Below are positions 18,377 to 61,047 of a stretch of 64,000 nucleotides of DNA, piece after piece; the stretch's first letter is position 1, and each line of letters opens with the position of its first letter. The stretch is from Gordius sp. MW1 (taxonomy: Eukaryota > Nematomorpha > Gordioida > Gordea > Gordiidae): NCBI GenBank assembly GCA_964036665.1, contig OZ038532.1, positions 1 through 64,000 on the forward strand, given 5' to 3'. The notes beneath the pieces are model-generated. The model did no database searches. It was not told where the DNA came from and saw nothing but the letters and a program-made list of their open reading frames with translations. A program made the translations under genes and the position numbers.

Positions 18377-18493
18377 GGTGTCAGGAACAGAGAGAATGTG
18401 AGAACATGAATCCGATTCATAGATGCCTCTGTTTCATGAACAAATGTCGTTGCTACTTCAAGGATGATTCTTTTGACGATGAATTCGAATTTA
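18377..18493 (+). CDS. Exon A: cysteine-rich EB/EGF-like module
   Basis: A candidate internal exon of 117 bp (39 codons), bounded by an acceptor ending TTCATAG and a donor GTAATA. Both boundaries fall after the first base of a codon (phase 1). It encodes CQEQREC, then CLCFMNKCRC and an acidic tail (YFKDDSFDDEFEF). The first pair C-x5-C and the late C-x-C match the other four exons, but the final cysteine of the module is absent and a different C-x-C pair appears in the middle. EB modules are found in secreted or membrane-anchored extracellular proteins; the function here is unknown. It is separated from exon B by a 118 bp intron. The frame runs into a stop codon 33 bases past the donor, as expected for an intron. 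Confidence 0.6.
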
Positions 18494-18611
18494 GTAATAA
18501 AATTATTTATATCAGAATACTATGGATTTTTTAAACGCTTTTGAAATAAAATACCATAAATAAATTACAATTGTACGAATAAATTAATGTTTAATAAAAA
18601 TTATTCTCAAG

Positions 18612-18740
18612 ATCTTTCCGCTAAATACCCTGGACAAAGTTGTACTCGGGACGAAGATTGTGTATTTAAAGTATGTCACCGATTAAAAATGTGTTTATGT
18701 GAGCAAGGCTATGGTCTGTCCGGTGGTAAATGTATTCGAG
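18612..18740 (+). CDS. Exon B: cysteine-rich EB/EGF-like module
   Basis: A candidate exon of 129 bp (43 codons), acceptor TTATTCTCAAG, donor GTATTT, phase 1 at both ends. The peptide contains PGQSCTRDEDC, then VCHRLKMCLC, EQGYGL and a closing C. Spacing is C-x5-C-x4-C-x5-C-x-C-x10-C, a full six-cysteine module of EB/EGF type. Such modules form three disulfides in extracellular proteins and are often encoded by symmetrical phase-1 exons that can be duplicated or skipped without a frameshift. An ATG at 18587 in the same frame lies before the acceptor and is probably intronic. A MITE with TA target site begins 84 bp downstream of the donor. Confidence 0.72.
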
Positions 18741-18824
18741 GTATTTTAAAATTATTTTATCATAATTTGATGGCTTTCCATTTTAAAACCAATTTATAAA
18801 AATGACGTTTAAAAAAATTCAATT

Positions 18825-19090
18825 AGGGGAGACCGTGGACTAAATAGCCTTCAAAGATTAAATCGCGTTTTAAAAAAAACTAAAAACTATTTTAAGAATT
18901 TTTGTTGAAACCTGTTTTGAGGTCTATTTTTTCTATAAAATTTGAATTAAAAAAATTAAAAGCTTTCTCACAAATTAAGTTTAAAAAACAAAAATCGTTA
19001 AAATTTTAAAAATGCCTGGGCTAGTCATAGACCCTTTTGGTGGATAGATTGACCCTTAAGTTTTCACTTATTATTAGGGTATGTTAATTA
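18825..19090 (+). mobile_element. GGGGAGACC MITE (TA target site), 5' part
   Basis: Starts TA-GGGGAGACCGTGG and aligns by eye with the left third of the complete copy at 61055-61975. Shared blocks are AAATCGCGTTTTAAAA, TCTCACAAATTAAGTT, GCCTGGGCTAGTCATAG and the TTTTCACTTATTATTAG segment. The right end is lost. It lies just downstream of exon B, as the complete copy lies just downstream of exon E. Confidence 0.7.
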
Positions 19091-19265
19091 AAATCAATTA
19101 AAAGATTTTTTTCCCGATATAAGTTTACTTCCAACTAATTGTGTATGTTGCATGCTAAAATATATTAAATTAATGAGCTGGCATCGAGCCATGGATTGAG
19201 ATTGTATTGGATTTTACAATTTCCATGGTGATTTTCTGATTGATGTAAAAGAATTCTTTGGGATT

Positions 19266-19400
19266 ATGTGTACGCCTCTAGGAAATATTCGAGTCGAATC
19301 CGAATTTGAATCCTTGTGTGTAAATTTCGAATCGATAATTCACTTGATGAGATTCGAAAATCCGAATCGAATCTTCAAAAAGGATTCAAAAAATTATTTA
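19266..19400. mobile_element. ATTCGAATCG-rich terminus (left)
   Basis: TACGCCTCTAGGAAATATTCG is followed by many GAATCGAATC variants. The inverse sequence ends near 24815 (GAAATCCAAAGGCGTAATCG), and a third copy lies at 62810-62960. It is probably an element terminus. Confidence 0.5.
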
Positions 19401-19404
19401 CTCT

Positions 19405-19960
19405 AAATTTATTTTAGATTAGAATGTAACAAGATTTGTTTTATCTTTCCGCAAATCACTAGTTTTTCTTAATCATTGAATTTATTTTATAAGAAAAAAC
19501 AGAATGTATTAAAAATTGCCTATAATATGGATTTCAGCTTCCAAAAAATCTCCAATATTTTTGCTAACATTTTAGGTCAATCGTTATTCAATGTTTAATA
19601 TTATTTTTGTACTTAACCATTATATTTTAACATAAATTAGACTGGTCAACAAACAATGGACTTATAAATTCAACCGACTAACTATTTGCAGAGTCTGGTA
19701 GACTTTTTTACGGTGAACACAAATATATTTTTAGTTAAATAAATTGCAAATTAATCGGTAGAATTTTAGTTTAAAAAATCTGATTAAATAAAGGCAAGAA
19801 ATTTGTTTAAAAATTTTTTTACCCTAGCTCTCTCAATTTTTGATATATATTTATGTCAATCTATAAACATGAAAATTTCCCCAGATTTAAGGTCGCCCTC
19901 CCTTCCTTTTAACATTAGGAATTAGGTGCATGTTGTTTATCTACTACTACAAGAGACCTG
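19405..19960. other. AT-rich stretch, nothing recognised
   Basis: No ORF or exon could be supported. Confidence 0.5.
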
Positions 19961-19964
19961 TCTG

Positions 19965-20095
19965 TACGGCTCGGTCAGGAAACGGGCCCAAAATCCTGGG
20001 CCAGGCGTGGACGGGCTTCCGCTAAAATAAAATAAATTAAGGGCTCTGGCCGGGCCTAGATATGTAAGGCTCATTAGAAGCCCATTTCAAAGATA
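19965..20095. mobile_element. GGGCC-rich repeat remnant
   Basis: Contains GGGCCCAAAATCCTGGGCC, GGCGTGGACGGGC and CTCTGGCCGGGCCTAGATA. The last is nearly identical to 16855-16875. It is a probable fragment of the same repeat family. Confidence 0.45.
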
Positions 20096-20123
20096 ATCAG
20101 ATTTTTCTTTGTGTTTTATAAAT

Positions 20124-20784
20124 TACTAGCTGACCCGGCCAACGTTGTTTTGCTAAAAATACAATTTTCTTTAATATAATAAAATTCAAGAAAACTTTAG
20201 CCTTGTATGTATTACATCATTATTGTATATGATGCTATAAATGAAACTGGCTGGAAAATGTCCGATATTTTTAAAACAAAAAAGTATTTTAGGAATGTGA
20301 AAAAGCTATTTTACCCCTGGCCGCCCTGGGCATCTACGGCTAATTTTTTGCGCGAATCGGGCCGGTAGTTTCAGAGTTTAGCCCTTTTTTAAAACGAAAT
20401 GTCCGATATTTTTAAAACAAAAAGAGGAATCTGAAAGATCGACCACGTGATAATAATGGCAAAAATTGCAAAATTTAAATTTTATTTATTTAATTTAAAA
20501 TAATTTTTACCGTATACTTTAACATTTTTATTATACTTTTATCTAATTCGAGAAAACTTTAACCTTGTATGTATGACGTCATCATTGTATATGATGCTAT
20601 AAATGGAACTGGCCGGGAAATGTCTGATATTTTTAAAACAAAAATATTTTAGGAATCTAAAAAAGCTATTTTACTCCTGTCCGCCCTGGGCATCTATGGC
20701 TAAATTTTCTCGCGAATCGGGCCGGTTGGTTCAGAATTTAGCCCTTATCCACATACATACATACATACATACATACATACATAC

Positions 20785-20815
<31 letters not shown>

Positions 20816-22112
20816 CATACATACATACATACATACATACATACATACATACATACATACATACATACATACATACATACATACATACATACATACATAC
20901 ATACATACATACATACATACATACATACATACATACATACATACATACATACATACATACATACATACATACATACATACATACATACATACATACATAC
21001 ATACATACATACATACATACATACATACATACATACATACATACATACATACATACATACATACATACATACATACATACATACATACATACATACATAC
21101 ATACATACATACATACATACATACATACATACATACATACATACATACATACATACATACATACATACATACATACATACATACATACATACATACATAC
21201 ATACATACATACATACATACATACATACATACATACATACATACATACATACATACATACATACATACATACATACATACATACATACATACATACATAC
21301 ATACATACATACATACATACATACATACATACATACATACATACATACATACATACATACATACATACATACATACATACATACATACATACATACATAC
21401 ATACATACATACATACATACATACATACATACATACATACATACATACATACATACATACATACATACATACATACATACATACATACATACATACATAC
21501 ATACATACATACATACATACATACATACATACATACATACATACATACATACATACATACATACATACATACATACATACATACATACATACATACATAC
21601 ATACATACATACATACATACATACATACATACATACATACATACATACATACATACATACATACATACATACATACATACATACATACATACATACATAC
21701 ATACATACATACATACATACATACATACATACATACATACATACATACATACATACATACATACATACATACATACATACATACATACATACATACATAC
21801 ATACATACATACATACATACATACATACATACATACATACATACATACATACATACATACATACATACATACATACATACATACATACATACATACATAC
21901 ATACATACATACATACATACATACATACATACATACATACATACATACATACATACATACATACATACATACATACATACATACATACATACATACATAC
22001 ATACATACATACATACATACATACATACATACATACATACATACATACATACATACATACATACATACATACATACATACATACATAAACTTTACTTTAT
22101 ATATATTGATAA
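20124..22112 (-). mobile_element. Helitron-like element M with giant CATA array
   Basis: In inverse orientation this starts with TACTAGCTGACCCGGCCAACG and ends with ACTTTACTTTATATATATTG. It matches 27313-28687, which runs the other way. Internally a ~360 bp block (from about 20191 and again from about 20550) is duplicated. The block includes GGCCGCCCTGGGCATCTACGG and GCGAATCGGGCCGG. The tetranucleotide array sits exactly between the CGAATCGGGCC block and the TA-rich terminus, where the other copy has no array. No transposase or helicase ORF is present, so it is non-autonomous. Confidence 0.75.
20751..22086. repeat. (ACAT)n microsatellite, ~334 units
   Basis: 1,336 bp of ACAT/CATA repeats with a single visible interruption (ACTT near 20783). 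Long ORFs through it on both strands (repeating IHTY on plus, MYVC on minus) follow automatically from a repeat without stops and are not genes. Confidence 0.98.
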
Positions 22113-22750
22113 ACCAAATGTTTTTTTTGTAACGTTTCAATCTATAATTATTTTTTGCTTATTAAATTAACAAGAATTTAATGGATTTCTCTCCTCTATA
22201 TACATAAATCAATTTGTTTTAATTAAAATGTTACCCATTAATTTGCAAGTTATTGACGTTTTAAACAGTGGCGTAGCTAGGTGGGGGCCCAGGGCCGGGC
22301 CCCACCGAGCGAAAACCGGGCCCCATGGGCCCCCCAGGGGAAAAATTTTGGGCCCCTGGGCCCCTTAAGCCATTTTTTTATTTTATCTTAATTAAGAAAC
22401 AATATATAGATAATTATCATTGTTTTTAAATAAAACTTTTAATTATAATATTACAAATATAGTTGCTGTATAAGACAATACCATTATGAATTAAAACTGG
22501 AAGATGCCGAAATAAAAATGGCAAAAAATTATGTAATATATTATGATTCTTTATCTTCGAATAAAATAAAATGCAATGACCTAATTTTATTATTTTGATT
22601 AAAATAATTTTAACTATCCCAACTTCATGTTCATGCGAAATATCGTTCTCATTGCTAAAACGGATTAAAACTTATCTTCGTTCCACAATTGGACAAGATA
22701 GGCTATCTTCCTTAGCTTTATTAAGGTGGTAAGAACATGACTTTATGAAT
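22113..22750. other. AT-rich DNA with one hAT-like GC island
   Basis: Mostly unrecognised. At 22268-22375 a GC-rich island starts CAGTGGCGTAGCTAGG, a hAT-type terminus in style, and continues with repeated GGGCCCC segments. No matching right end was found. TTAATTAAGAAACAATAT near 22388 is shared with element L. Confidence 0.5.
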
Positions 22751-22753
22751 AAC

Positions 22754-23609
22754 CAGATGAACCCGGCAAACGTTGTTTTGCCTTTTACCCGGGTGTATTA
22801 GCAGAATATATATCATCTTATAGATAAATTTCAATAGATTAAGAATATATCAAATATAATTGGTAAGTGTTTATTATGCAAAAAATTTTAAACAAATAGT
22901 TAAAGAGGGTTCAAGGCCCAGGCCCACCCAAGAGAGAAAACCTATTCCCATGCCCCCCCCCCCAAGGAAAAAATCTTTGGCCCCCTGGCCCTTCAAGAAA
23001 TTTTTTTTTAATTTTTTGTAATTAAGAAACAATATCATAATTATAATTATTTGTTTCAGAATAAAACTTTTAATTCTGAACTTAATAATGTCCGAAGAAC
23101 TGAAATATATCAACATTTATTGGCACTTTGTTAAAAGTATTTTTATTTTTCTCCTTATTTAACGCGCAAAAAATAACAAAATTAGATTTTTTAATTTATT
23201 TAGCCACGCAGGAGGGGACAGACCGTCCTATAATAATAATAATTGACATGAAAAATAAGCAAAAAAAATGACTTTGATTTAATGTTTCAAATCGTAAAAA
23301 GTTTCCATTTTCCGCAGCACATGCCTACATTTATCACACTACACTACCTACACGCATGACGGTCTAGACAAATTTTCAAACGCAATACGTGATGAGGTTG
23401 CGTTTGATTGACATTTTATTAAACGTCAAAACGTCTAAAACAAACTCGAAAACTACTGGACCGATTTGGCTCGAACAAATCTTAAAACATGCTCCGGAGT
23501 GTCAGGAATAAAGTGTGAAATTTTGAGCCAAATCGGTCTAATAGTTTTCCAAATTGGTGGCGGCATACACACAAACATACATACACAGTTTCATTTTTAT
23601 ATATAAGAT
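22754..23609 (-). mobile_element. Helitron-like element L, copy 2
   Basis: Inverse orientation. It begins ACCCGGCAAACGTTGTTTTGCC and ends TTTCATTTTTATATATAAGA. Near the far end it carries AAAACTACTGGACCGATTTGG and its inverse AAATCGGTCTAATAGTTTT, then a short imperfect CATACAAACATACATACA. The full structure is shared with 40979-41824. It is non-coding and non-autonomous. It provides approximate empty-site sequences for the two MITEs in copy 1. Confidence 0.75.
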
Positions 23610-23965
23610 ATTACCCCGGATGATATTATAAATTTGTTTGCAACATCGAGTAAAAGGCGTAATGAACTACTATTAAAAGACTAATTTTAATATTAATGAA
23701 AAATTATCTGGGCTTTTAAACTTGTTTTAAACTTCTTAATACTTTTAAAATATATTAAAATATTATTAAATTTACGAAAATTCCATCCTGGATTCAATTT
23801 AATTGTCCATCTCACATGCTTATTGTTTAATCTTTATTTTATGCCCTAGAAACATGCGGATCTAAGACATACCAGTGTGATGTTATTAGAAAAAATACAC
23901 AAAGTAATAGCGAAATTTTAAGTTTGTCCAACGTTTATGAGTGAAAATTTTTTCATTTGCGTTTG
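23610..23965. other. AT-rich stretch, nothing recognised
   Basis: No ORF or repeat could be supported. Confidence 0.5.
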
Positions 23966-23968
23966 ACC

Positions 23969-24131
23969 CATGGGCGTATCCAGGTTTTGGATTGAGGGGG
24001 GGGGGGACAAAACATAATTTTTATTAATTTTAAAGGGTTTTGTAATTAAATTTTTTGTCCCCCCCCCCATGGCTTGACCAGCTCAGCCCCCCCCCCCCCC
24101 CCCCAAGGCAAAAAGGCTAGCTACGCTACTA
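23969..24131. mobile_element. G/C-tract MITE
   Basis: Starts CCATGGGCGTATCCAGG and ends GGCTAGCTACGCTAC, with G- and C-runs inside. It belongs to the same loose family as the 12055 element. A short ORF across it is a by-product of the C-runs. Confidence 0.55.
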
Positions 24132-24705
24132 GTTTTAAAAACGCCAAAATCGCTGTTTTTAGCAACTTTGACAGCAAATATTTCAAAATCTTGACGTACA
24201 GGGCAAAATTAAAAACTTGTGATCACCACGAAAAACTCTACCAAAATTTGCAAACTTCTTAAGTATAAAATATATTGTGATATGCCTTAACCTTAAATGC
24301 CGAGATCTTGTTTAAATACATAAAATTTTAGATTCATAATTAAATAAGATAATACTTTGCTTGCACGGGTACCGCTAACTAAATAATAAGTAAACTCTAA
24401 TTAACGCATCTAACCGAAATTTTTAACTAGAAACTATATTAAATTTAGATAATTTAGATACAGAAAAAGAATAATGAATGGTTTTGGACCATTTCACACC
24501 TAATAAATCATCTAATTATGCTACCTGCGTTGATTGAAAAAGTTATTTTTATATAACAAACAAAAACTGACTAAAAACAATTCTTTACTGTTTCAGAGAT
24601 ATCTATATTTTTCCTACTTTTATATTCAATCTTTGTATTTTATAAATAAACTTTTGAAATGTATTAATAAATTAATGCAATATTTAGTAATTAAAAAAGC
24701 TTGAA
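24132..24705. other. AT-rich stretch, nothing recognised
   Basis: No gene could be supported. Confidence 0.5.
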
Positions 24706-24709
24706 AAAT

Positions 24710-24815
24710 TTTCAAATCGAATTCGAATCTTTATTTTAATATTCGACGAACGAATATTTTTTTTTCGAATTCGAATCAAATACCAAAAATTATCGATTCG
24801 ATTTGAAATCCAAAG
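24710..24815. mobile_element. ATTCGAATCG-rich terminus (right)
   Basis: Inverse of the 19266-19400 terminus, ending GAAATCCAAAGGCGTAATCG. The two could be the ends of one 5.5 kb composite element. Confidence 0.45.
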
Positions 24816-24844
24816 GCGTAATCGTGTGTAATGGAGGTAATTAG

Positions 24845-25020
24845 GGATGGATATTTTCCCGGGAAATTTGCTAAGGAAAAATTCCCGGGAAAATACAGGA
24901 AATAATGGGGGGGGGGGGGGAAATGTGAATTTAAGGGAAATAACGGTAAAAATAGGGCAATTTAGATATTTTATTCAATAAAAAAGTTTAAGAGGGGGAT
25001 TCGTAAAAATTAATCCTTAT
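24845..25020. mobile_element. Repeat remnant with TTTTCCCGGGAAA palindromes
   Basis: Begins TTAGGGATGGATATTTTCCC and repeats CCCGGGAA-type palindromes before a G-run. This resembles an end of a hAT-type element in style. No right end was found. Confidence 0.4.
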
Positions 25021-25028
25021 ATAGCAAA

Positions 25029-26886
25029 CTCGGGCCTTCGGCCCTCGTGGGAAGGGGGAGGGGAGAAGGGAAGGGGGGAAGGGAAGGGGGGACGACTCAT
25101 CTTTACTTCGTATAAATGTATCATATTTGCTATGCAATTTATGGGCGAGAAAGGTGGGAAGGGGCGAGAATGCCTATAGGGGGGTATTAAATGCCTAATG
25201 ATTAATTAATTATTCATACAAATTTTCCATTTATAGGCAAAATGTAATATAGGCAAAATGTAATATAGGCGAAATGTAATATAGGCAAGGGTCAGGGTTA
25301 GATTTAGTGTTTGCATCTAGTTGCGTATTACATTAATTTTTACGGCCTTTAGTGATTATGGGTCTAACAAACAATATATTATAAAACATCACAATGTTAA
25401 GAATTTGCAGAATTGTTGGGAGAAATTTTTGTTCAATTTGAACAATTTTTAATTAAAAAAATCAAAAATTTGGCCAATGGTCATTTTTTTCCATCGGTCA
25501 GCAGCCAGCACACGGTAAAAATGGATATAAATTCACAAGAGTAAAAAAAAAGAAAAAAAAATTTTCGAATCACATTTTGGCCAATGGTCATTTTATTCCA
25601 TTGGTCAGCAGCCGGACACGGTAAATTCATAATAGTCAAAAAAAACGAAAAAAAAATTTTCGAATCATTGGCCAATGGTCATTTTTATTCCATTGGTCAG
25701 CAGCCAGCGGACGGCCAAAAAGTCATAATAGCAATGGTAGGAACAGGAACAATCATAATAGTCAAAAAAAAAAACGAAAAAAATAATTTCGATTCACATT
25801 TTGGCCAATGGTCATTTTTTCCATCGGTCAGGAGCCAGCGGAAGGCCAAAAAGTCATAATAGCAATGGTAGTAACAGGAATAATCATAATAGTCAAAAAA
25901 AACGAAAAAATAAACTCGGATTCACATTTTGCCAATAGTCATTTTTTTCATTGGTCAGCAGCCAGCGGACGGCCAAAAAGTCTTATTATCAATGATAGTA
26001 ACAAGAACAATCGTAATAGTCAAAACTAAAACGAAAAAAAAACTTGGAATCACATTTTGGCCAATGGTCATTTTTTCCATCGGTCAGCAGCCAGCGGACG
26101 GCCAAAAAGTCATAATAGCAATGGTAGTAACAGGAACAATCATAATAAGCAAAAAAAACGAAAAAATAAACTTGGATTCACATTTTGGCCAATGGTCATT
26201 TTTTTCATTGGTCAGCAGCCAGCAGACGGCCAAAAAGTCATAATAGCAATGGTAGTAACAGGAACAATCATAATAGTCAAAAAAAAAGACAAAACTTGAA
26301 TTCACATTTTGGCCAATGGTCATTTTTTTCATTGGTCAGCAGCCAGTGGACGGCCTAAAAGTCGTATTAGCAATGGTAGTAACAAAAACAATCATAATAG
26401 TCAAAAAAAAAAAAAAAAAAAATTTGGATTCACATTTTGGCCAATGGTCATTTTTGTCATTGATCAGCAGCCAGTGGACGGCCAAAAAGTCTTATTATCA
26501 ATGGTAGTAACAGGAACAATCATAAGAGTCTAAAAAACTCCGAGATTCTAACCCAAACCCTTGTAGTGGGGTAATTATGGCAATTAATATCAATGTTACC
26601 CAATTCAAAAACGAATAGATATACTTATGCATTAATTTAACGTAGCAATTAAAACCCGACCCCGCCCGGAAGCGAGGGAGATAGAGATGAGGGGTGGGGC
26701 ACCTCTTATGCATTAATTTAAAAAATAACACAGCGAGGGAGATAGAGATGAGGGGTGGGGCACCTCTTTCTCATGCATTAATTTAAAAAATCGATAACCT
26801 AATATACCCAATGCATAGATAGGGAGGACATCAACGGACATCAACGGACAACCAAAAACGAGCCCATAAATTGCATAGCAATTAAT
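25029..26886 (+). mobile_element. F-family element, full copy with nine repeat units
   Basis: One end has the hairpin GGGCC-TTC-GGCCC (25032-25044) followed by a purine-rich G/A tract. The other end reads ACCAAAAACGAGCCCATAA then TTGCATAGCAATTAA. The centre is an array of about nine units, each ~95-130 bp, marked by TTTTGGCCAATGGTCATTTT at about 25471, 25576, 25669, 25800, 25925, 26055, 26184, 26308 and 26437. CCAATGG and CCATTGG form a small inverted repeat in each unit. Short ORFs in several frames merely follow the array. There is no transposase. The structure recalls tandem-repeat-bearing non-autonomous Helentron-like elements, but that class is an inference. Confidence 0.8.
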
Positions 26887-27312
26887 AATTAAAATATAAT
26901 GTTTGTATTTGTGAAAAAATCTACATTTATTACAAGTTAAAATTGTTACCCATAAACCTTTTCTTAGTATTTCTAACTTAAGCTAGCTAATTTTAAATGG
27001 TTATTTTCAATGAAGTGTTATCATTTCTTAATGTATTCACAAAATGAGGCACTTGTTAGATTTTTTAACTAATAGTGTCAATGAAATGTTTATTTTTGAA
27101 TGTATAATTAAATATTTATCAGTTATATCAATTTTAAAAAATAATCAATACATTACGTTTGTCTTGATGACAAACAGAGAAACAAATTATTTTAAGATTT
27201 TATATCATTCATTTAAAGCTGATTGCTCAAAAAATGGTGCTTAGATGTCCCTGCAATTTTATCAGTATTAAAGTGTGGAAATTTGTAAGTAGTATATGTT
27301 CGATATCTTTTA
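26887..27312. other. AT-rich stretch, nothing recognised
   Basis: A 66-codon ORF near 27044 has no recognisable features and is likely chance. Confidence 0.5.
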
Positions 27313-28687
27313 TAATCTATCTATATATATAAAGTAAAGTCTAAATTCTGAAACTACCGGCCCGATTCGCGCGAAAATTTAGCCGTAGATGCCCAGGGCG
27401 GCCAGGGGTAAAATAGCTTTTTCAGAATCCTAAAATTCATTTTAGTTTTAAAAATATCGGACATTCGTTTTAAAAAAGGGCTAAACTCTCAAATTACCGG
27501 CCCGATTCGCGCGAAAAATTAGCCTTAGATGCCCAGGGCGGCCAGGGGTATAATAGCTTTTATTCCAAAAATACCTTTTCGTTTTAAAAATATAGGACAT
27601 TTCCCGGCCAGTTTCATTTATAGCATCATATCCAATAATGACGCCATAATACATACAAGGTTGAAGTTTTCTCAAATTAGATATTTAAAAGTATAATAAA
27701 AATGTTACAATATACGGTCAAAATTATTTTAAATTAAATAAATAAAATTTAAATTATGCAATTTTTGCCATTATTATCACGTGGTCGATCTTTCAGATTC
27801 CTAAAATACCTTTTCGTTTTAAAAATATCGGAAATTTCGTTTTAAAAAAGGGCTAAACTCTGAAACTACCGGCTTGATTCGCGCGAAAATTTAGCCGTAG
27901 GTGCCCAGGGCGGCCAGGGGTAAAATAGCTTTTTCAGATTCCTAAACCGTTTAGTTTTAAAAAATCGGACATTTCCCGGCCAGTCATTTATAGCATCATA
28001 TACGATAATGACGTCATACATACAAGGCTGAAGTTTTCTCGAATTTTATTATATTAAAGTGTAGAGGCTATGAATTAAATTAAACGCGCTAATTGGAATC
28101 AAAAACCTTCTTTCGCACGCTACTTTCCCTTGACCCCGTCTAGGCGAATTCTAACACGTTGCTTTATTTAATAGCCCCTCGTTTGTACTTATCCATCACG
28201 TTATTTTTATTTTAATAGCCCCTTGCTTGTACTTAACCATCACGTTGGGGTCACCAAATGAAGTGGTTATTTCATTAATTAGAAGAGATACTTTTGTAAT
28301 CGAGTTTATTGTTAGTGTAAAATATATGCAAAAAAAATGAATAATGATCATGTTAGTTTTAAAGGTTGTGCTCATGTAGCTGCGCGAGCCCATTATCATT
28401 TGAATAATCAGGCGATGGTTGAATACAAGCGAGGGGCTATTAAAATAAAAATAACGTGATGGTTAAGTACAAGCGAGGGGCTATTAAAATAAAATAACGT
28501 GATGGTTAAGTACAAACGAGGGGCTATTAAATAAAGTAACGTGTTAGAATTCGCCTAGACGGGGTCAAGGGAAAGTAGCGTGCGAAAGAAGGTTTTTGAT
28601 TCCAATTAGCGCGTTTAATTTAATTCGTAGCCTCTACAAAAGAAAATTGTATTTTTAACAAAACAACGTTTGCCGGGTCAGCTAGTA
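27313..28687 (+). mobile_element. Helitron-like element M, copy with nested foldback
   Basis: Starts TCTATATATATAAAGTAAAG and ends CAACGTTTGCCGGGTCAGCTAGTA. It carries three copies of the GATGCCCAGGGCGGCCAGGG block (near 27390, 27530 and 27900) and lacks the CATA array present in the inverse copy at 20124-22112. A 577 bp foldback element is inserted 27 bp before the terminal CAACG motif. Confidence 0.75.
28061..28637. mobile_element. Foldback element with ~180 bp inverted termini
   Basis: The left arm starts GTAGAGGCTATGAATTAAAT and the right arm ends with its inverse. The arms stay complementary through TTGACCCCGTCTAGGCG and a tandem block containing CGTGATGGTTAAGTACAA. The block occurs twice in the left arm and up to three times in the right. 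The related element M copy near 20155-20180 is uninterrupted at this point (its inverse reads ATTAAAGAAAATTG), so the insertion boundaries are confirmed by an empty site. No coding capacity was seen. Confidence 0.85.
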
Positions 28688-28689
28688 TT

Positions 28690-29435
28690 AAAATAAACAA
28701 AAAATTCTATTTCAAAATTAAATAATGGCTAGAGGTTAAATTTAAATGATGTTTAGTTTTATTTTCAATGTAATGTATTTTAACAATCTACAATACAAAA
28801 ATAATTACGAAAGCAAGCATTTTAGCCTAAATTTGGGTTTAGATTAATCCATTTAATAGACTGCACTTCTTTTTAAAAGGGGTTACGAAATGTTAATAAT
28901 GATGGGCTATCCCATATTTATCTAAACAAATATCATATTTAATATTTTTTTAATTTTACTGTAATAGGGAGAATAAACGTTGCCGAATTAAATCTATCCT
29001 TTACACTGCCATATTAAAATGAATTTTGCATCATCTTTTAAGTGAATTTTTGAATTGGACTGAATATAATAAATAATTACACTGGCTTAGCCATAAAGAG
29101 GGAGGGCTGCCCCTAATATTTTAATTTCTTATAAATTTAACTAATTTTATTAAAATTTAAAAATTTCATCCTTTTACCAATACAATCCAGATGAATATAT
29201 TAAAAGGCCTAATTTAAAAAGAGGTCCATTTTTTCAGCATATTAATTGTGCATGAGTAAGTTGGCGTTTAGCTATGATTTTAGATTAAAGTGTAAGAATA
29301 TGCAGGCTCATTATTTAAAATAAGCCCAATTAATGTCTCAAAAGCTAACAACTATGGCTAAATGTTCATTCGAAACTAAATGTATGTTTCACCTAAATTC
29401 AGATTATACAAATAATAAATTCGAAAAAGATATAA
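28690..29435. other. AT-rich stretch, nothing recognised
   Basis: No gene or repeat boundary could be supported. Confidence 0.5.
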
Positions 29436-29439
29436 ATTT

Positions 29440-30250
29440 TTTACGCCGTCGGGTCTTTTACCGTCAGTGGAGCTTAGGCCTGCCGGTTTTTGTGAATTAG
29501 GAAAGCCGGCTTTTTTCAAAAATTGCCCGAGTATTTTAGTTTATTGTGGCATGACTGGGATGCCGCCCCTTGCTGTAAGGCAGTGTAGAGTATGATGGCC
29601 GTTTGCTAGAACGGGTTGGCGAGAGAGGTCGCAGTTGAATGGGGACACAATGTCGCAGCCGGGGCGTAGGCCTACAGCTATTCGAAGTTCCTCACCCGAC
29701 AAGTGTAACCCGAGGTTTTGACTTGGTAGGGCCTCGAGCCATTCGTAGCTCCCGGAGGATGCCCAATTGAAGTAAAGATTTCTCAAAGTAGGTTGTTCGA
29801 AGAGAGATAAGCTACGGAACGTGCTATCAGTGGTTAATTCCATTACTTTTGGGTGGTTCCAGTTTGGGTGAGTTGAGGAATTTAGTGAGATAAACCCTGA
29901 TATTAAAGTAAATGGGGGGGGGGGGGGGAGGGGGTCGGATGCCTATACAACTATTCTTGGAGGGAAGAGTGGCTTAGAGCCATTGGAGAGTCTTAGATTT
30001 TAGGTTAAGGCATGGTTCGATTAGCATTCGAATTTTTTTTTGATTGCGTGGAGTAAGTTAACGCTTAAAAAGACGGGCGACACGCGTAAAGCATAGTTTA
30101 TTTCGAGTATAAAGAAGAAGTTTTTTACGAGAAGGGTGTGGCTTATGGAGTCGATAAAGTCGAAGAAAAGCTCTAAGAATGTTTCAGTAGTTTTGACACC
30201 TCCTATGGGAGCGCCTAAACAATGAAAGTCATCTCTTGTTATAACTGGAA
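29440..30250 (-). pseudogene. RT-RLE retrotransposon, 5'-truncated copy
   Basis: On the minus strand the copy starts in the RT thumb (HCLGAPIGGVKTTETF, matching LTHLGSPIGG of the neighbouring copy). It then passes a 100-codon open piece (29541-29843) containing LHLSGEELRIAVGLRPGCDI, and reaches the nuclease motif TDGKRPDGV near 29450-29470. In the zinc cluster the second cysteine is replaced (CDLS instead of CNLC), and a frame break follows LHC. A G-run interrupts it near 29914-29930. It ends before the WD part of the nuclease. It lies directly downstream of the 3' end of the better copy, in the same orientation. It is inactive. Confidence 0.8.
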
Positions 30251-30454
30251 ATGGTAGGGAGAGTTTGTTGTTTTATAATAAAAATATAAGGAGTTCAAAT
30301 ATAATATGGTTATATTTATTTACTTAATACAAATAAAAAGGGTTAAGATGATAATCTCATTTAAGTACCTATAAAAGAATCTTTTAAATTACACTTTGAT
30401 AAATTTTTTTTAATAGGCATTTTTATTAAATGAAACTATAAAAAACTATAAAAA

Positions 30455-32980: not shown

Positions 32981-32984
32981 CAAA

Positions 32985-33413: not shown

Positions 33414-33415
33414 CT

Positions 33416-43990: not shown

Positions 43991-43991
43991 T

Positions 43992-45720: not shown

Positions 45721-45940
45721 TTTTTTGTTTTAAAAATCGTTTTGTTTAAATTAATAAGTTTTTCAACGAATATTCATTATTGTGTGACAAGTTAAATTTA
45801 ATGTTTTAAAGGCCTTTGAAGGCTTGTGTAAAAAATGGTAATTGAGATATGTAAACCTTTGAAAGCTCCATAATAAATGCACTTAATCATTGTAAGTTAT
45901 AAATTTAAATTTGTATATTAATATAAATTATGTTTATATT
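45721..45940. other. Spacer between two F copies
   Basis: 220 bp of AT-rich sequence without similarity to either F element. Confidence 0.6.
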
Positions 45941-47690: not shown

Positions 47691-47826
47691 TTGTATCTAA
47701 GTTTCAATCTACTTATATTGTAAACCAACAAAATGGTGTTAAATTTTAGAAAAGTTGTTTTTTTGATTATCCTCTTTAAATAAAAAAAATGTAAGTGGGA
47801 AATATAAAACAATTGAGTGTTTGTTG

Positions 47827-49409
47827 CAGAGGTCAGATTTGTTTAAAAATTTTTGCCCGAACCCGGCCCGGTTTGATTTTATGATTAAACTGCCCGCCCG
47901 GGCCGCCCGAATCCTTCTAAGTACTGCCTGCCCGGCCCGAAGCACAAGAGCAGCCCGAAATGCCCGCCCTAAATATTACATGTGTCCGTTAAGCCCGAAT
48001 TTTTTATTTCTATCTTAAAAATTACCCGATAAAAACAAGCCAAATTTTGCAGAGATATTTAAGGGTAAATTTTGTTAGGCAATAAAATTATAACATTCAC
48101 TAACTTATAATGTACAGAATTTTTAAACGGGGCACTAAATAAATTTTATCTTTAAATTCGTTTACTTGATTAAATCAGGTTTTTATATTAGCTTTAGCTT
48201 AAACCAATGTAATTCCCTCATTTTAAATAGATTCGAGAATAAGAAAAACCTATTTAAACTTAAGATAATTTAGTCTTTAAATAATAATGAGTTAATTATT
48301 TGTTTAAAAAACAAACAATTTATAAATATAAATTACTTGAATGGAATAAATAATGGAAATTTTTGTTAGAATGAATTTGAATATGAAACTTAAATTTAAA
48401 CAATATTCTGTTAAACGTGGCGTGTCGCCTTGAAGACGCCGATCGTAAGATAAGGGGGAAAACACTTTTCTCATAAATCATTCCTTATTTAATATTTTAT
48501 AATCTCTCTCTAATCTACTTTTTAACTCCTAACAAAATTGGATGTTTGTCTAGACTGCACGCACATGCACATGCGTTGCGTTAGTTAGCAATAAAAAAGG
48601 ACGTAAAAGTAAATATTCAAATTCATTAAATTCTTTTTAAAACCAACGTAGTTAGCGATAGGATTTAACCCTCGAGAGCATTCGTGGTACACCACGGACC
48701 CCACGATAGTTATAAACATACATATGAAACGCGTTTAAGGACGAATTCTGGCCTTTTTAGTAATCTAATATCTTACCAAGAACAAAATTTGGAGAATTTT
48801 ATAACTTTTGGTCCACTATTTTTTAAATATAGCATCTTTTTGGTCACAGGGGTCCTGTATACCCCACGAATAAATGCTAATAGTTTTTTTATATCATCAT
48901 ATCTTTGTGCAATTATATTTTTTATGATTTCCACTTGATTTTAATAAAAAATCATTTTGATTTTGATTTATTTCATGGTATATGATGAAAATGAGGCGAG
49001 GCTTTGAAACTAAAAAAAATAATATGACCACAGAAAAATGTTAAAAAATTTTGTAATATTGTTTAATTATTTATCAAAGTTTATACCATCAATTAAGAGT
49101 CCTTTACAAACATTATTCAAAATCTGAGATAATTTTAATTAATAGTTCGATAGTTATAAGAAATTACAAATGGGGCCAAATATACCCGACGGCTCTCGCG
49201 TTCGTTTCAGGATACTCTTGAGGGTTAATTAAAGGGAATGGGGTGCTAAGCTAAGCTTTCTCGATCAAATAAAAAAAATAACAAATTTTTAATTTAATTA
49301 GGCCCAAATTGCCCGAATCTTATCAGCGTGCCCACCCGGGCCAGCCCGAAGACTAAAATTTAAGACAATTGCCCGGCCCAGCGGGCCAATCCGGGCATTC
49401 TGATCTCTG
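47827..49409. mobile_element. hAT-type element, 1583 bp, with 8-bp duplication
   Basis: The left end is CAGAGGTCAGATTTG and the right end (inverse) is CAGAGATCAGAATGCCCGG. Both are followed inward by CCCGGCCCG-type GC clusters. The flanking octamers are GTTTGTTG (47819-47826) and ATTTGTTG (49410-49417), 7 of 8 identical. An 8-bp duplication plus CAGAG ends indicate the hAT superfamily. No transposase ORF is present. A piggyBac-type MITE is nested inside at 48669-49224. Confidence 0.85.
48669..49224. mobile_element. piggyBac-type MITE with TTAA duplication
   Basis: TTAA at 48665-48668 and 49225-49228 flanks a 556 bp element. It starts CCCTCGAGAGCATTCG and ends with the inverse of CCCTCAAGAGTATCCTG. 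TTAA target sites with CCC...GGG ends are the hallmark of piggyBac transposition. It is non-coding and lies inside the larger hAT-type element, so it inserted later. Confidence 0.85.
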
Positions 49410-49434
49410 ATTTGTTGTTATATATAAGTAATAT

Positions 49435-49604
49435 CATAGGCGTATTCAAGGGGGCAGAGGATCGGCTGCCCCCCCCCCTTAAAGACGAAAAAAAATTCAA
49501 TTTAAAAACCCTCACAGATAAAAAAAATTATGTTTTGCCCCCCCCCCTAGTTAAACTTCTAAACCTTTGCCCCCCCCCCAATCCAAAACCTGATTACGCC
49601 CATG
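49435..49604. mobile_element. 170-bp G-tract MITE with 8-bp duplication
   Basis: Ends CATAGGCGTATTCAAGG and CCTGATTACGCCCATG. Flanks are AGTAATAT (49427-49434) and AGTATTAT (49605-49612), 7 of 8 identical. It is a relative of the 43365 element. Confidence 0.78.
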
Positions 49605-49632
49605 AGTATTATGTATCAATATCTATATATTC

Positions 49633-49832
49633 ATGTTTAGAGGTTTTGAATTGGGAGGGGGGGCAGATTCTTTTTAACAAAAATTTTTTGCTTGACTATT
49701 CAAAATTTTTCGCGACCAAAAAACAAGAAACTTAACTATTCAAAAATTTTCCTGCGCCCAAAAAAAAACTTGACTATTCAAATTAGGGGGGGGGGAGCCG
49801 CCCTTCCCCCCTGCGCCTCTGGGTACGCCCAT
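49633..49832. mobile_element. G-tract MITE, imperfect copy
   Basis: CATGTTTAGAGGTTTTGAATTG to CTCTGGGTACGCCCATG, with G-runs and three GACTATTCAAAA segments inside. No target-site duplication was identified. Confidence 0.6.
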
Positions 49833-49839
49833 GGGTTTT

Positions 49840-52800
49840 TCGGTAGGTTAAAATCCGGTAGCAATCTGTTTTTATTTGAAACTTAAAACCAATTTGCACC
49901 AAAAAAACCTTTGCGAGGGGTTAATAAATCTCAAAGCAAATAATTTAATATTTGAACATTTTATTAAAAATTCAAGATTCAACACTCCATAGGTTAGGTG
50001 GGGTCATGGTGACCCCACGCAGTTAAATAATTCTGTACCAAGAAAGTTAGTTATTTTGTGGTTTCATTATTTCAATAGCTTAGCTGAATTTACTTTAAAA
50101 TATCTCTGCAAAATTGGCTTGTTTTTGTCAAATGGTTTTTGAGACACAGAGTGTTTAGATGCCTGGGGTCTTCCAGGATACCACTTTATACACAATATAA
50201 AACAAAAAATTTCAATATTTTTGTAAATATATTATCAAAAACCATTTTTCTAACCCTATTTGTAAAACAACTTATTTATAAATTTTATTTTATTTGAGAT
50301 ATTTAAATTATAAACTTAGATTTTAACATGCTTATTTTTCCTCATGGTATTTTAAAGTGTGCAAAGTGCTCATTTGCGCAAGCGCACTTTATATTTAACG
50401 TGTCTAACTTTAAAAAGTGTTCATTGCCTGGAGAAAGTGTATTACATAACAATTTATTAAGTGGTCCCAAATAAATAAATAATAAAAATTAGTTTGAGGA
50501 GTTTATACTTTAAAGTTAATATTTAAAAGCTTAGCAATTTAATATACTAAAAAATCACATATTAATGAGCTTATATAACTGATGTTTAGGGAAGGGAGGG
50601 GTTTCAAGTTAGAACCACCCTCCCCATGGACAAAAAAAATTGGTTTTTTTTTTAAATTATACGGAAAAATTCAATGATATTAATAAGAGGCTTGTTAGTG
50701 TTGCGCATATAAAAAATAATAAATAATCTTAATTCATGTGATATTTAATTTTAGATAAAATCTACTTATTCTAACACTACTTAGACAAAAATTATCTGTC
50801 CCGAGTGAGTGTTTTTTAATAGGAAGAAGTTTAAATTTCTTTTTAAATAAACGAGGAACATCATGCTAAATACAGGGCAAATTTTAATAAAGGTAATTAA
50901 TAATTTTATTTTCTAGGTATTTAACATGGTTATTTAACTTACATTAGTTCCTTGTTTGTATAGATTGCGGTTATACTACTAGAGAGGAGTATTTGTTTAT
51001 AAAGTTACTTAATTAAAACCTATTTTTAATTTACAACATATCAAATTTGATACTAAATAAAATGTGTAGGAACTGGATTTTCTTAAAAATACCATTTCTA
51101 TAGCCCTTAGTCTATTTTAAGCTATTACATGTAGATTTTTTCCATAATTTCATATCTAACCTTCTATAATGTATTTCTATTATAAAAATTTAAAATGAAC
51201 AAAAAATTCTTTGAAACGGATTCAGAACAACATAAACTCAAGTCAAATCTTCCATAATTTTGGACAACTCTATTTATTTTTGTTTTCGGGCTGATTATTT
51301 AAACCATAAAAAAGTTATTTTTGTTATGAGCCAAATTAATTTTGGGGGTCGTATTAATTGTGGATATTAAATTTTAGTTACTTGATCGAATAACCAAATA
51401 ATATATTAATTTATTGATTAAAGTAGAAATATTATGATTCTTAAATTACATCCCATACAACCAAATTATAGCTATTTAGAGTTTTGGGTCATCATGTCAC
51501 CTTTTACCATCCGTGTTAGCATTTTGTGACCAACGGGTTAATAAAAAAAAACTTGGCATATTCAAAAAAACTTGGAAAATAGCAAAAAAATGCACTTCGA
51601 AATAAAAACTATGTAAAATAATTTGTTGCCTATAATAAGGTCATTATTGAACATATTGGGAGGGAGTTTCTTTATTAAATGTAAATAATAAAGTGAGGGA
51701 AAAGTAAAGAGTTCGTAAGTGAATTGTAAAGAAGTGTTTTAAACTCCTTTATATATTTGCAAATTAATTGAATAAATCAATTACATTTAGTGGTGAATAC
51801 GCGAGGTATATGTGATTGGTCAATTAACGTCGCGAAGTAGTAAGGTAATGTAAATGAGTCAATTAAGTTTCAAAGTAGATATAAGTAATATGCCGCGAGC
51901 AATCAATTAAGGTAATGGACGCAACAAACATATGCCAAAATCAATTTTTATTTTTGAACTTTAATTTTAGACAAATTTGTTTAGTCTATATAGATCAATT
52001 TGATATCTGCTGGTCTAGAATAACTATTATGGTTGGATTATGACTTTTCTAATTATTTCGTTTTTTAAATATTTAAAACCAAAATTTTGAAAGGCATCAT
52101 TTTATTAGCTGTGCGAGACAGGTTTATAAATAGATAAAGTTTTTTGACTCCTTGCCTGGGCCAAATTTTTTTATTAACTTTGTAAGGGCTTGCTATAATA
52201 GGCGATTTTGAAGCAATGCAAAAAAAGCGAATGTTTATTAATACATAGCTGCATCCTAATACCCGTGTTTCATTTATAATTTTAATATCGGTCATCATAT
52301 GAACGAACATCTATGTATAGTCTTTTTGATAATGGGTCTATTTCATAGAGTAATAAAAAGAATAATACTAATAGATAGGGTTCATTTTTAGGAGAAATAA
52401 AAAATGAAAGTTACTTGATATAGATAAAGCATTCGTGGATTAATTACTGTCATAAGTTGTTCCTTAATGTTTTACATTTTTATAGAGTTTATAGTACCTA
52501 TGCAATTTATTTTACATTAATGTCAAATTCGGAATTTAAATATCTTGTTTAGAGGTGAATACATATTATAGAAATGTACTAAACCGTATAAATATAAACA
52601 CTAATATAAATTTATTAAGTTGATCGAAATTAAACCATGGTTAAGTAAGATTATTTGAGTTAATACTAATAACAATTTTTTTTATTACGATATCTAAATC
52701 AAAACCATATAACAAATAACAGTTTTTTAAAATACAATATTTTTATTAAAGTCAAGGTAAAGTAACGAACGTTGAAATGATGGGTTGTTTTTAGGTAATA

Positions 52801-53877
52801 ATTGTCGTGTCTGAGAGTGAGGTCATCATTAAACTTATATTTATGGAATGGCAGGTCCCTTATTCCCAAAACTTTGCAATATACAAACAGCCTGGACTGC
52901 TATATCCGCCTTTTTAGGCCTAGTTATATTAAAGCTATGAAGGATGCTAATGGTTTTGATTGACACATCCCAAAATAACACTCAACACAATTTTTGATCC
53001 TTGCCAATCTTTTGCTAGACTTGATTTTCTCATCATTTAGACAAGGGCTTGATTAAAGTTTTCAGACATAGTTACTGAAAAAAGCCTTATCAACTATAAA
53101 CAAATAAGAAATATTATATGGATATTGAAAATATAATTATCAGGAGCTATATAGTTGTTATTTTTTGTATTATTTTATATAGGGAGCATTGATTCCACAC
53201 CCCTCCGCGCACCCAAATAAAAATATATAAATATTTAGCACCTGAAACAGCCAGTAATTGCTGGTTTAAAAATTCTTATTTGTTTCTTCTCTATTTCCCC
53301 TAAGTCATTAAGAAAGTTATATATATCATCTTTTGCTATCTTAATAATTACTTATTTCATAATGAATCTAATTATCATAAGTAATGATACTTATGGATAT
53401 CCTAAATAAAAAGGCCAATTGCCTAAAAAACTGACCTTAAGAGATGTGATGTTAATTTATAATCATAATATGCGTTAAAATGAAGATCAACCTTTATGTT
53501 GGAAATATCCATTTAACTACAAAATTTAAATAATTTATTCTATTTGGACATAGATGTTAGTAAATGTGCTAGGTCGCATTAGGGCGTGATCAAAAATAAT
53601 TTTTCATTCTTTAAGATTTTCTTGGTTAAGTGATAAAATTCAACTACCTTGTGTCTTTGTTTATAAAGGGCATTACTGTGCTTTTAATAGGTTTTTCTAA
53701 AGCAACTCAAATAGTAAAAGGATTAATATAGTAGTTATATATATCCTTGAAATTTGAATCGCAAATTTTGGGGAAAAAACTGGAACGCTTGAAGTTGAGT
53801 CTCGTATTAGGGCGGTATTGAAGGACTTATAAATTAAGCGTTTATTTTTTCGTATTTAAACTTAATCTATTTATTAG
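49840..53877. other. AT-rich stretch; only weak piggyBac-like traces
   Basis: Mostly unrecognised. At 49995-50190 GGTGGGGTCATGGTGACCCC and CTGGGGTCTTCCAGGATACC resemble the interior of the piggyBac-type MITE. AATATCTCTGCAAAATTGGC at 50100 is the near inverse of 48035-48060. No exon with EB spacing was found. Confidence 0.5.
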
Positions 53878-54012
53878 GTAACCTTGGAAATCTCTGTCAA
53901 TCAAGTAGGGAATGTCCTCTGAATGGATTTTGTGCAGCACGTAGAGGTTATAGATGCAGATGTGAAGGTGGATTTTTTCAAAAACCAAATGATAATGAAA
54001 CTTGCCATTTTA
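53878..54012 (+). CDS. Exon C: cysteine-rich EB/EGF-like module
   Basis: A candidate exon of 135 bp (45 codons), acceptor CTATTTATTAG, donor GTATGG, phase 1 at both ends. It encodes NLGNLCQSSREC, then GFCAARRGYRCRC, EGGFFQKP and a final C. Spacing is C-x5-C-x5-C-x7-C-x-C-x13-C, a complete six-cysteine module. Each boundary is in the same phase as exons A, B, D and E, so it could be spliced to any of them without a frameshift. It lies 35 kb from exon B and 6.7 kb from exon D. The intron on the left is packed with mobile elements. Confidence 0.72.
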
Positions 54013-58063: not shown

Positions 58064-58071
58064 TTAATAGC

Positions 58072-59744
58072 TAGTGTTTCGATCTCGTCTCGTCTCGGTC
58101 TCGAAAACAAATTCTCGTCTCGTCTCGGGAGCGATTATGAAAATCTCGATCTCGTCTCGTCTCGGTCTAGAAAAATCTCGGTCTCGTCTCGTCTCGACGA
58201 GAATTCTCGTCTCGTCTCGACTTTTTAAAAAATGTTTTTACGGAATAAAAATTTCTCCCGTTTTATTAAAAATATTAAATAAGTGTTAAAAAATCCAAAT
58301 GGCAAAATTTTATATTTTTTAAAAAACTTTAATATGCAAACTATTTTAAGATTTAGCGGGACATGACATCTCATTGACAATATAAAAGATAACATTTTCT
58401 ATGGAAAGTGCAGACTAAAAAAAGTATAAATAAATTTGAAGTATAAAAAATTAAATTTCTAGCAAATTGTAACATTTATATCAAATTAACTGTGTTTGTC
58501 CATTAAAAATAGAATCAGAAAATTATAAGTTCGCTTATAGTTGACTTAGTGCATAATTGAGCAAATTGAGACCCTTTATGTATTAAACCTGGCTAAATAT
58601 TCAAAGTAGAACTTAATTTAAGGCAAACGTTTAAGTCTATTGATATTACCATCAGCAATTATAGCGCATAGTCTATTGCAGGTTTACTATAACATTATAA
58701 ACCACAAAGTGCGAGTTTTAATGATAATATTTTTCACAGAATTGAAAACTTGTTGCATATATTCAAACGTTGTAAAAACAACTTTAAAAGCAGCATTATA
58801 ATAAGATTAAGAACATAGGGTTTTAAACTTTAAATTAAAGTTATGATCAAATATATATTTCAAATAATTACCTTCCAATTCTAACTAACTTTGCCATTAA
58901 ATAGTTAGTTATTGTTTATTTTGTATTGCACAATTATGGAAATTATAGGAAATTTGAATACATCTGCCAAACCAGCTTATAATGCGAAAAGAATGCATAT
59001 GACAAAACTATGTATTCGCATAATGTCTTATTTAAGTTCAAAATTTTGAGAGGTGTACTATTAGTTAAAGCATAAAAAATTCAAGAAAACTCATGATTTA
59101 AGATTTAATCTATTACGGTGTCATTACATACTCTATTGTACTTTAGAAATCGTTAGGTGGGTGCTTAAATATTTCGAGCCACCTTAGTTTAGCTTTTGTA
59201 ATTATTCAAACTGATTGACCACCAATTTATAATTACCGCATCATGCAGGATTAGTAACTGCGAAATTCAAATATGCTTTAGTAATATTTATTATTCCATC
59301 AAAACTCATTCTAAGCCTAAATTTTGTAACATTTAATAATATGCATAAAAATATGTGCTAATTATATTATGAAATTATTTACATACCCTATAGGTCAACC
59401 TTACTTAGGTAAATGATCGCCAAATTATAAATTTTTGGAAAAAATATATAATATTTACTATACTTAGGAATTTTTTTTAAAAAAAATATATTCCATATAT
59501 ATTGATTTACACTTAAACCTTTAATGTAAATCATATAAATTATAATACAAAATAATTTACTAAAATCAAACGATCAATAAAAAGTCGAGATCTCGCCGAG
59601 AAAATCTCGTCTCGTCTCGTCTCGACATCAAAATTCTCGTCTCGATCTCGACTCCATTTTTCACAATCTCGTCTCGTCTCGTCTCGGTTTTTCGAGACGA
59701 GACGAGACGAGACCGAGATTTTTCTCGTTTTTTCCGCATCACTA
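58072..59744. mobile_element. hAT-type element, 1673 bp, perfect 8-bp duplication
   Basis: TTAATAGC at 58064-58071 is repeated exactly at 59745-59752. The element begins TAGTGTTTCGATCTCG and ends (inverse) TAGTGATGCGGAAAAAACG. Just inside both ends lie about 130-160 bp of TCTCG/CGTCT pentamers in inverse orientation. The right side also has a local hairpin of TCTCG and CGAGA repeats near 59675-59715. The interior is AT-rich with no transposase. ORFs at the ends come from the pentamers. Confidence 0.9.
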
Positions 59745-59752
59745 TTAATAGC

Positions 59753-60714
59753 TCTAGGCCGGATTAAAGTGCATACTGTCAATCGGAACAATTGATTTCA
59801 AAAATCCATCGAAACAAAAATAACTTGTTAAATATTTGATCAGCTTGATCTATATTGCATGCACAAACTCTAATTTTTCTAATATTTAAATTTTCCTAAC
59901 GCCCTTCTCTTCAACTCATTATTGTTCCGAAACAGTTTCATTGACTATGGCTTATACCAACTTATCTTAAATTATCTACCCCTAACTCATTTTGCTAAAA
60001 TTTTCTACACTTTTTCGTCCTTGTTAATAGTTAATAATATGGTATAAAATTAAACAATTTCCTTCGCATTTTCTTATAAAAAGCGGCGTAACCCTTAATA
60101 AAACCAGAGTTTCTATATAAAAATTTTATAAAAAATAAATTTTCAAACATAGATTATTAGTAATTTTAAAGTATTAATGAATGTAAATTTTAATTATTTT
60201 TGTTAGGGAGCTTATTTACCATAGTATTTAATATAGATAACACAATATTAATTGATAATTTACTGCATGCTAAAGAAAAAATGCTATAAAGTAATTGCAA
60301 AACTAATAGTTAAATAAAAATAATTGTATAAAAAAAGTATATCAATTGCTAATAAAATGTTATATATTTTATTAATTTTGATATTTTATGTTATTTAAAT
60401 AGTAATAAATGGGGCACATTTAAGGTAATCATAGCAATTTATTAAGAGTTCCGTTTATAACATTATATTAATTTGTATTATATATACTCGCTTAAAAGTT
60501 GAACGTATAATTTGTCCAGCTGTTGACGCATCTGAAAAAGAGCCCAGTATTTAAACTGCAAGCTTTAAATTTAGCGCTCTAATTATATCTAATTTTATCT
60601 AAAATTGAGTAGCGTACTACTTAACAGTTTTAATTTTTGATTTTCCATTTTTTGAACCATTTATATTGAATCTTTCACAAGTGCATATTTTGCATTATTA
60701 AGTGAATACCCTAG
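59753..60714. other. AT-rich stretch, nothing recognised
   Basis: Probably intron upstream of exon D. No exon with EB spacing was seen. Confidence 0.5.
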
Positions 60715-60825
60715 GTGAGGAGTGTGAAGTGGACGACGGTTGCGCAGGAGACGCATGGTGTGTAAACAGAATATGCCAATGTAATTGGGCGTTAGAGTAC
60801 GAAGATGATTTGTGGTGCAAAAAAA
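60715..60825 (+). CDS. Exon D: cysteine-rich EB/EGF-like module
   Basis: A candidate exon of 111 bp (37 codons), acceptor AATACCCTAG, donor GTAACT, phase 1 at both ends. It encodes EECEVDDGC, AGDAWC, VNRICQC, NWALEYEDDLWC and KK. Spacing is C-x5-C-x5-C-x4-C-x-C-x11-C. An alternative upstream acceptor near 60701 would give an immediate stop, which supports the chosen boundary. The frame runs into a stop three codons past the donor. It is separated from exon E by a 105 bp intron, similar to the 118 bp between exons A and B. The acidic composition resembles exon A's tail. The protein is probably extracellular; ligand and partner are unknown. Confidence 0.75.
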
Positions 60826-60930
60826 GTAACTAATAACATTTTTAGAACATATTAGCTTTAAAAAAGTTTTAACATTTTTTATAAATTTAGGTTTTATAAT
60901 CTTCATCAGATTACAATTTCTTATTATTAG

Positions 60931-61047
60931 AAAAAAAGCTGAATCAAAGTTGCCGAAGTAATGAGGACTGCCAAACTAACGTTTGCTCGGATCAAAAATG
61001 CGTTTGTCCCTATGGGTATTTGGATGATAAAATTAGGTGTCTCAAAA
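60931..61047 (+). CDS. Exon E: cysteine-rich EB/EGF-like module
   Basis: A candidate exon of 117 bp (39 codons), acceptor TTCTTATTATTAG, canonical donor GTAAGT, phase 1 at both ends. It encodes KLNQSCRSNEDC, QTNVC, SDQKCVC, PYGYLDD and a final C. Spacing is C-x5-C-x4-C-x4-C-x-C-x10-C, the clearest EB/EGF-like module of the five and close to exon B. The donor overlaps the TA target site of the MITE inserted at 61055, so the splice site ends exactly where the mobile element begins. No following exon was found before 64000, so the gene probably continues beyond the window or in undetected exons. Confidence 0.78.

Follow-up and report, generated by a model that had tools for sequence, protein, structure and literature searches.

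Do five small exons scattered through repeat-filled DNA beside a telomere of the nematomorph Gordius sp. MW1 belong to a single gene, and if they do, what kind of gene is it and how does it change? The exons lie in the first 64,000 bases of contig C6 (OZ038532.1, 23.0 Mb; hereafter the window), in the assembly GCA_964036665.1 (211.8 Mb in 12 contigs). From them the initial annotation had proposed a rapidly changing extracellular protein gene near a chromosome end, whose phase-symmetrical exons could be lost or duplicated without disturbing the frame. Our analysis indicates that the five exons, A to E, most likely make up the 5′ portion of a gene belonging to a subtelomeric family, of which we found eight copies, all pointing inward from contig ends.

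18377..18493, forward strand: exon A, module with six cysteines in a variant spacing, phase 1-1, 117 bp, present in eight copies.
18612..18740, forward strand: exon B, EB module (Pfam EB, 26.6 bits), phase 1-1, 129 bp, eight copies.
53878..54012, forward strand: exon C, EB/EGF-like module, phase 1-1, 135 bp, eight copies.
60715..60825, forward strand: exon D, EB-like module (Pfam EB, 22.4 bits, below the cut-off), phase 1-1, 111 bp, eight copies.
60931..61047, forward strand: exon E, EB module (Pfam EB, 25.4 bits), phase 1-1, 117 bp, eight copies.

The structure described for these exons is borne out: each is preceded by AG and followed by GT, begins and ends in phase 1, has a length divisible by three and is free of stop codons. 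The cysteine spacing C-x5-C-x4-5-C-x4-7-C-x-C-x10-13-C is present in exons B, C, D and E, and exon A has six cysteines in a different spacing. The introns have the sizes given for them (A-B 118 bp, D-E 105 bp, with a gap of 35 kb between B and C). The four regular exons B to E are not a product of chance, because the EB cysteine motif with phase-1 AG/GT borders occurs four times in positions 7701 to 64000 of the window and in none of 60 dinucleotide-preserving shuffles of that stretch. The profile check proposed at the outset agreed in part. Exons B and E exceed the EB (PF01683) cut-off of 24.3 bits; exon D falls short of it, as does exon C at 17.4 bits, and exon A gave no match. The EGF profiles gave no support, the scores being 17.9 for exon C (EGF_2, cut-off 22.1) and 18.6 for exon E (EGF_4, cut-off 27).

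Whole-genome queries with exon A, exon I, exon J and the concatenated A-I peptide identified eight collinear copies, referred to here as C6L (the copy in the window), C1R, C2R, C3R, C5R, C8R, C2L and C10. Past the window the gene continues on the same strand, with five further exons at 67.9-89.7 kb of contig C6:

C6 67919-68047, forward strand: exon F, EB-like, from a profile built on this genome's own EB-type exons.
C6 77488-77604, forward strand: exon G, EB-like, from the same profile.
C6 77647-77778, forward strand: exon H, EB-like, from the same profile.
C6 84269-84387, forward strand: exon I, not of EB type, entered in phase 1 and left in phase 0, from the comparison of diverged copies.
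C6 89459-89678, forward strand: exon J, not of EB type, entered in phase 0 and left in phase 1, from the comparison of diverged copies.

Exons A to J are complete in seven copies, and C10 holds A to E only, its 32.5-kb contig stopping there. Because the order and strand of the exons are identical in all eight copies, exons A to J form one gene, and exons B and C, which the initial annotation would have taken as one gene if spliced reads connected them, are joined within it across the 35-kb gap by the same collinearity. The phases also fit from exon to exon (A-H 1-1, I 1-0, J 0-1), with exons I and J together making a 113-codon phase 1-1 unit.

All eight copies are near contig ends, each at a different end and with its 5′ side outward. 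Six of them have exon A within 27 kb of the end (13.6 kb in C10 and 17.8-26.6 kb in C5R, C6L, C1R, C2R and C3R), and the distances for C2L and C8R are 41.9 and 178.5 kb; on the assumption of 16 chromosome ends, sequence up to 180 kb from an end makes up 1.4% of the genome. TTAGGG arrays are present at the six ends that carry C6L, C2L, C10, C1R, C2R and C3R, and contig C6 itself opens with approximately 7.7 kb of these repeats, marking the chromosome end that adjoins the gene. With related copies near eight contig ends, this is a subtelomeric multigene family.

The exon set and order are constant in all eight copies, as far as each reaches, and the copies differ by amino-acid substitutions that are densest in exons A to E; the initial hint that the gene changes by losing or duplicating exons without a shift of frame is therefore unsupported. 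Among the five closest copies the proportion of synonymous differences (pS) is similar across exons A to I (0.11-0.21), and the pooled ratio of the nonsynonymous proportion to it (pN/pS) divides the gene into a fast head (A 0.46, B 0.69, C 1.30, D 1.12, E 0.64) and a slow rear (F 0.12, G 0.12, H 0.07, I 0.26), exons C and D being the most variable modules. All 48 cysteine columns of A to H are invariant, that is, six of six in each module over seven or eight copies. Given the fast-changing residues around them in the head, this means that the framework is kept while the rest of the head changes; a recognition protein would be expected to show such a pattern.

Codon models point the same way. 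In IQ-TREE, with seven copies, exons F-H had a nonsynonymous-to-synonymous rate ratio (omega) of 0.14 (p=2e-25 against 1), and this purifying selection argues that the copies are not dead. For the head we used a custom implementation of the site models, which reproduces the IQ-TREE one-ratio likelihood for exons C and D (-1267.37). With C10 left out, the comparison of M2a with M1a across A-E in the seven copies gave a likelihood-ratio test statistic (LRT) of 18.8 (p=8e-5) and placed 12% of codons at omega 4.0; the same comparison for F-J gave an LRT of 0 and no class with omega above 1. In the five closest copies the A-E signal was stronger still (LRT 28.4, p=7e-7, 34% of codons at omega 3.75), and all seven leave-one-out sets were significant, with p ranging from 6e-6 to 0.0065. 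When each exon group was given its own tree, the five closest copies yielded LRTs of 9.6 for A-B (p=0.008), 7.9 for C (p=0.020) and 13.5 for D-E (p=0.001), and the eight copies yielded 10.7 for C and 19.9 for D-E.

The reading that we consider moderately probable is that these genes form a subtelomeric family and encode extracellular proteins in which a diversifying head sits on a conserved base. Each copy encodes an array of six-cysteine EB/EGF-like modules, A to H, followed by a module made from exons I and J. In A to E the cysteine framework is held while a share of the other residues changes quickly, apparently under diversifying selection, and the strongly conserved F-H, together with I and J, would form a constant base beneath the variable head. 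Secretion or membrane anchoring is the most likely fate of the protein, and the partner that its head most likely binds would be one that changes fast, for example a microbe, the cells or gametes of another individual, a parasite or a host. The similarity between ends suggests that duplication, or exchange from one chromosome end to another, spread the copies. The initial proposal thus stands as to the position of the gene beside a telomere and its rapid change, and its extracellular nature is retained as probable. A wider interpretation, which we put forward tentatively and regard as rather doubtful, is that chromosome ends here accommodate a recognition system of the animal, made up of copies of one modular surface protein that lie near many telomeres and all face inward, with heads driven apart by selection and copies spread by exchange between ends, the logic being like that of protist antigen families and the use being in self/non-self recognition, immunity or mating.

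Several observations weigh against the favored reading. Two of the eight contig ends, those of C5R and C8R, have other repeats instead of TTAGGG in their last 200 bases, and the C8R copy lies 178 kb from its contig end. Exons I and J have no library match over the cut-off. A signal-peptide exon was not found in the partial upstream sequence of the copies, and exons following J were not seen in C6L up to 114 kb or in the 3.6 kb behind exon J of C5R, so that secretion and membrane anchoring are proposed here as probable properties only. As for selection, the mean omega of exons C and D did not differ from 1 in IQ-TREE, either with seven copies (0.90, p=0.44) or with five (1.67, p=0.13), and just four codons of A-E had a posterior above 0.9 for omega above 1. 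In the eight copies the A-B group fell short of significance (LRT 5.2, p=0.076), and the trees of the A-B, C and D-E groups disagreed, which may reflect either exchange or weak resolution. The claim of diversifying selection rests on site models, and exchange between paralogs can inflate these.

Could the head simply be free to vary? Under relaxed constraint exons A to E would encode a stalk that serves as a spacer, where the disulfide framework alone is of importance and all else drifts, no binding partner driving the change. The mean omega near 1 for exons C and D is what such a stalk would give, and so is the complete retention of the cysteines. However, drift alone yields an omega of 1 at most, and the class above 1, which takes in 12% of A-E codons with seven copies and 34% with five and on which all leave-one-out sets agree, counts against it. 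We regard relaxed constraint as possible but unlikely.

An artefact of gene conversion, or of exchange between chromosome ends, is a second way in which the signal of selection could have arisen, and one that we consider improbable. Blocks do appear to have been copied or exchanged between ends, as C6L and C1R have in common a 2.1-kb block of 96% identity that includes an intron, and the disagreement of the exon-group trees in the eight copies is consistent with such movement. Against this, the A-B, C and D-E trees of the five closest copies have one and the same topology, each group is significant there in its own right, and pS is similar across the exons.

That exons A-B, C, D-E and the later exons are several small neighboring genes is suggested by the gaps between them, which reach 46 kb, but it is very improbable given their identical order and strand in every copy and the joining of their phases.

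Subtelomeres accumulate duplicated pseudogenes. The initial annotation had named premature stops in homologous exons as one finding that would speak against its proposal; there are none in the exon copies delimited. All 75 exon copies (68 of exons A-I and seven of exon J) are open and have AG/GT in the expected phase. The splice table behind the first of these counts covers A-E in eight copies and F-I in seven, takes the in-phase AG and GT nearest to the expected border and leaves out one row that misassigned exon E of C10 as exon G; 65 of its 68 exon copies match the C6L length. Exon J is intact in all seven copies that reach it. Among 63 genome-wide matches, 14 contain TAA codons, 12 of which belong to the subtelomeric family, and these 12 matches either extend beyond an exon border or cross the G-H intron, with no stop inside the borders. 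That the copies are dead or dying duplicates, as the repeat-filled introns and the TAA-bearing matches might suggest, is thus largely refuted and extremely improbable in view of the open exons, the omega of F-H and the retained cysteine columns.

Where might a diversifying family of this kind have come from? On contig C5 (6311513-6348375) there are 100 EB-type modules in 37 kb, all on one strand, of which 99 have a phase-1 AG and GT nearby by a permissive splice-site test; this cluster is perhaps one giant modular gene. Seven further EB modules lie at 9.64-9.65 Mb of contig C6, and contig C1 holds, at 25.26 Mb, a sequence distantly matching exon H (43%). These relatives suggest that the subtelomeric family may have arisen from an older EB stock in the same genome. 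It resembles EB module proteins (PF01683) in its six-cysteine spacing, in exons B and E passing the profile cut-off and in its phase-1 module exons, as in the C5 cluster, and differs from them in having a fixed array of eight modules plus the I-J module, repeated near chromosome ends, with a diversifying front.

In protists and fungi, chromosome ends are known to foster variable surface genes, and the VSG of trypanosomes and var of Plasmodium are subtelomeric surface-protein families of protists. As in those families, a multigene family is found here at chromosome ends, with a variable outer part on a conserved one, but this is an animal gene with many introns and few copies, and no domain is known to be common to them. 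The expanded recognition receptors of invertebrates, such as the SRCR families (PMC10855680), are likewise multigene families of cysteine-rich extracellular modules, but they are built on another domain, and it is the family described here that is placed near chromosome ends. Literature searches that paired the EB module with subtelomeric gene families or with the SEA domain, or EGF-like modules with chromosome ends, gave no papers, and among the titles and opening abstract lines listed by broader searches none describes this family. If the reading of a diversifying subtelomeric family is correct, it would furnish an unambiguous example from an animal, its copies intact near eight contig ends, in one orientation and with a diversifying head on a constant base. 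It would also allow a test of whether proximity to a telomere itself speeds the diversification of recognition in animals, a question that complete assemblies of chromosome ends make testable.

The two ends of the gene were examined by several means. The SEA domain (PF01390) was considered for exons I and J and was not supported: the best E-value was 0.072, in one of six copies scanned (C8R being outside the scan), with none over the cut-off, and hhalign against three SEA domains of the same genome gave a probability of 0.4%. The likeness is at most a weak hint, coming from a unit of 113 codons. A conserved block 3 kb behind exon I proved to be a repeat and was dropped as an exon candidate. 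Upstream of exon A, tblastx between C6L and C10 revealed no common 5′ exon, and neither did comparison among partial stretches from C5R, C2L, C6L, C10, C1R and C8R. A strict scan upstream of these six copies (ATG, hydrophobic core, phase-1 GT) gave no candidates, and a looser signal-peptide scan upstream of C6L, C10, C5R and C2L gave 38, none of which was common to the copies by eye.

The introns of the family are swollen to different degrees, the B-C gap ranging over the eight copies from 4.5 kb (C2L) and 6.5 kb (C10) to 35 kb (C6L).

18741..53877, unstranded: B-C intron of C6L, 35 kb, containing tandem arrays and repeats that are probably mobile (repeat analysis).
61055..61975, unstranded: TA-flanked element with inverted terminal repeats, with a relative on contig C2 at 87% identity.

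This element begins 7 bp behind exon E, whose splice donor it leaves untouched; the 40 bases that follow exon E in C1R hold nothing of the kind, and the donor there is likewise intact. The suggestion of a gap filled with mobile elements holds as far as repeats, swollen introns and one inverted-repeat element are concerned, but Pfam recognized no element protein in the four open reading frames scanned out of the 12 long ones listed for the window; the label draws on the repeated sequence and that one element. Positions 20751-22087 are an ACAT tetranucleotide array of 334 copies (99% matches).

At the chromosome end and between it and the gene, Tandem Repeats Finder identified two further arrays:

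1..7669, unstranded: TTAGGG telomere array (CCCTAA on the forward strand), period 6, 1278 copies.
7686..11729, unstranded: 321-bp satellite in the telomere-to-gene interval, approximately 12 copies.

The satellite has no match in the whole of C10, in the first 10 kb of contigs C2 and C5, in C2 from 38 to 80 kb or in the 6 kb that precede the C5R copy, and is perhaps specific to the left end of C6. The right ends of contigs C5 and C8 consist of simple repeats, AAAGTT-like and GGACAACGGAC-like, and may represent either a different end sequence or incomplete assembly. COX1 on contig C12 is open when read with mitochondrial codes 5 and 9 but not with code 2, which may point to a non-arthropod invertebrate that uses code 5; the cuticle family PF00379 had 0 hits in the genome, a result that does not demonstrate its absence because no control gave a hit. 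Elsewhere in the genome, matches to mitochondrial COX1 occur at several nuclear places, including C4:356383-379815 and C8:2829490-2830827, the latter spanning the whole profile; they look like mitochondrial insertions.

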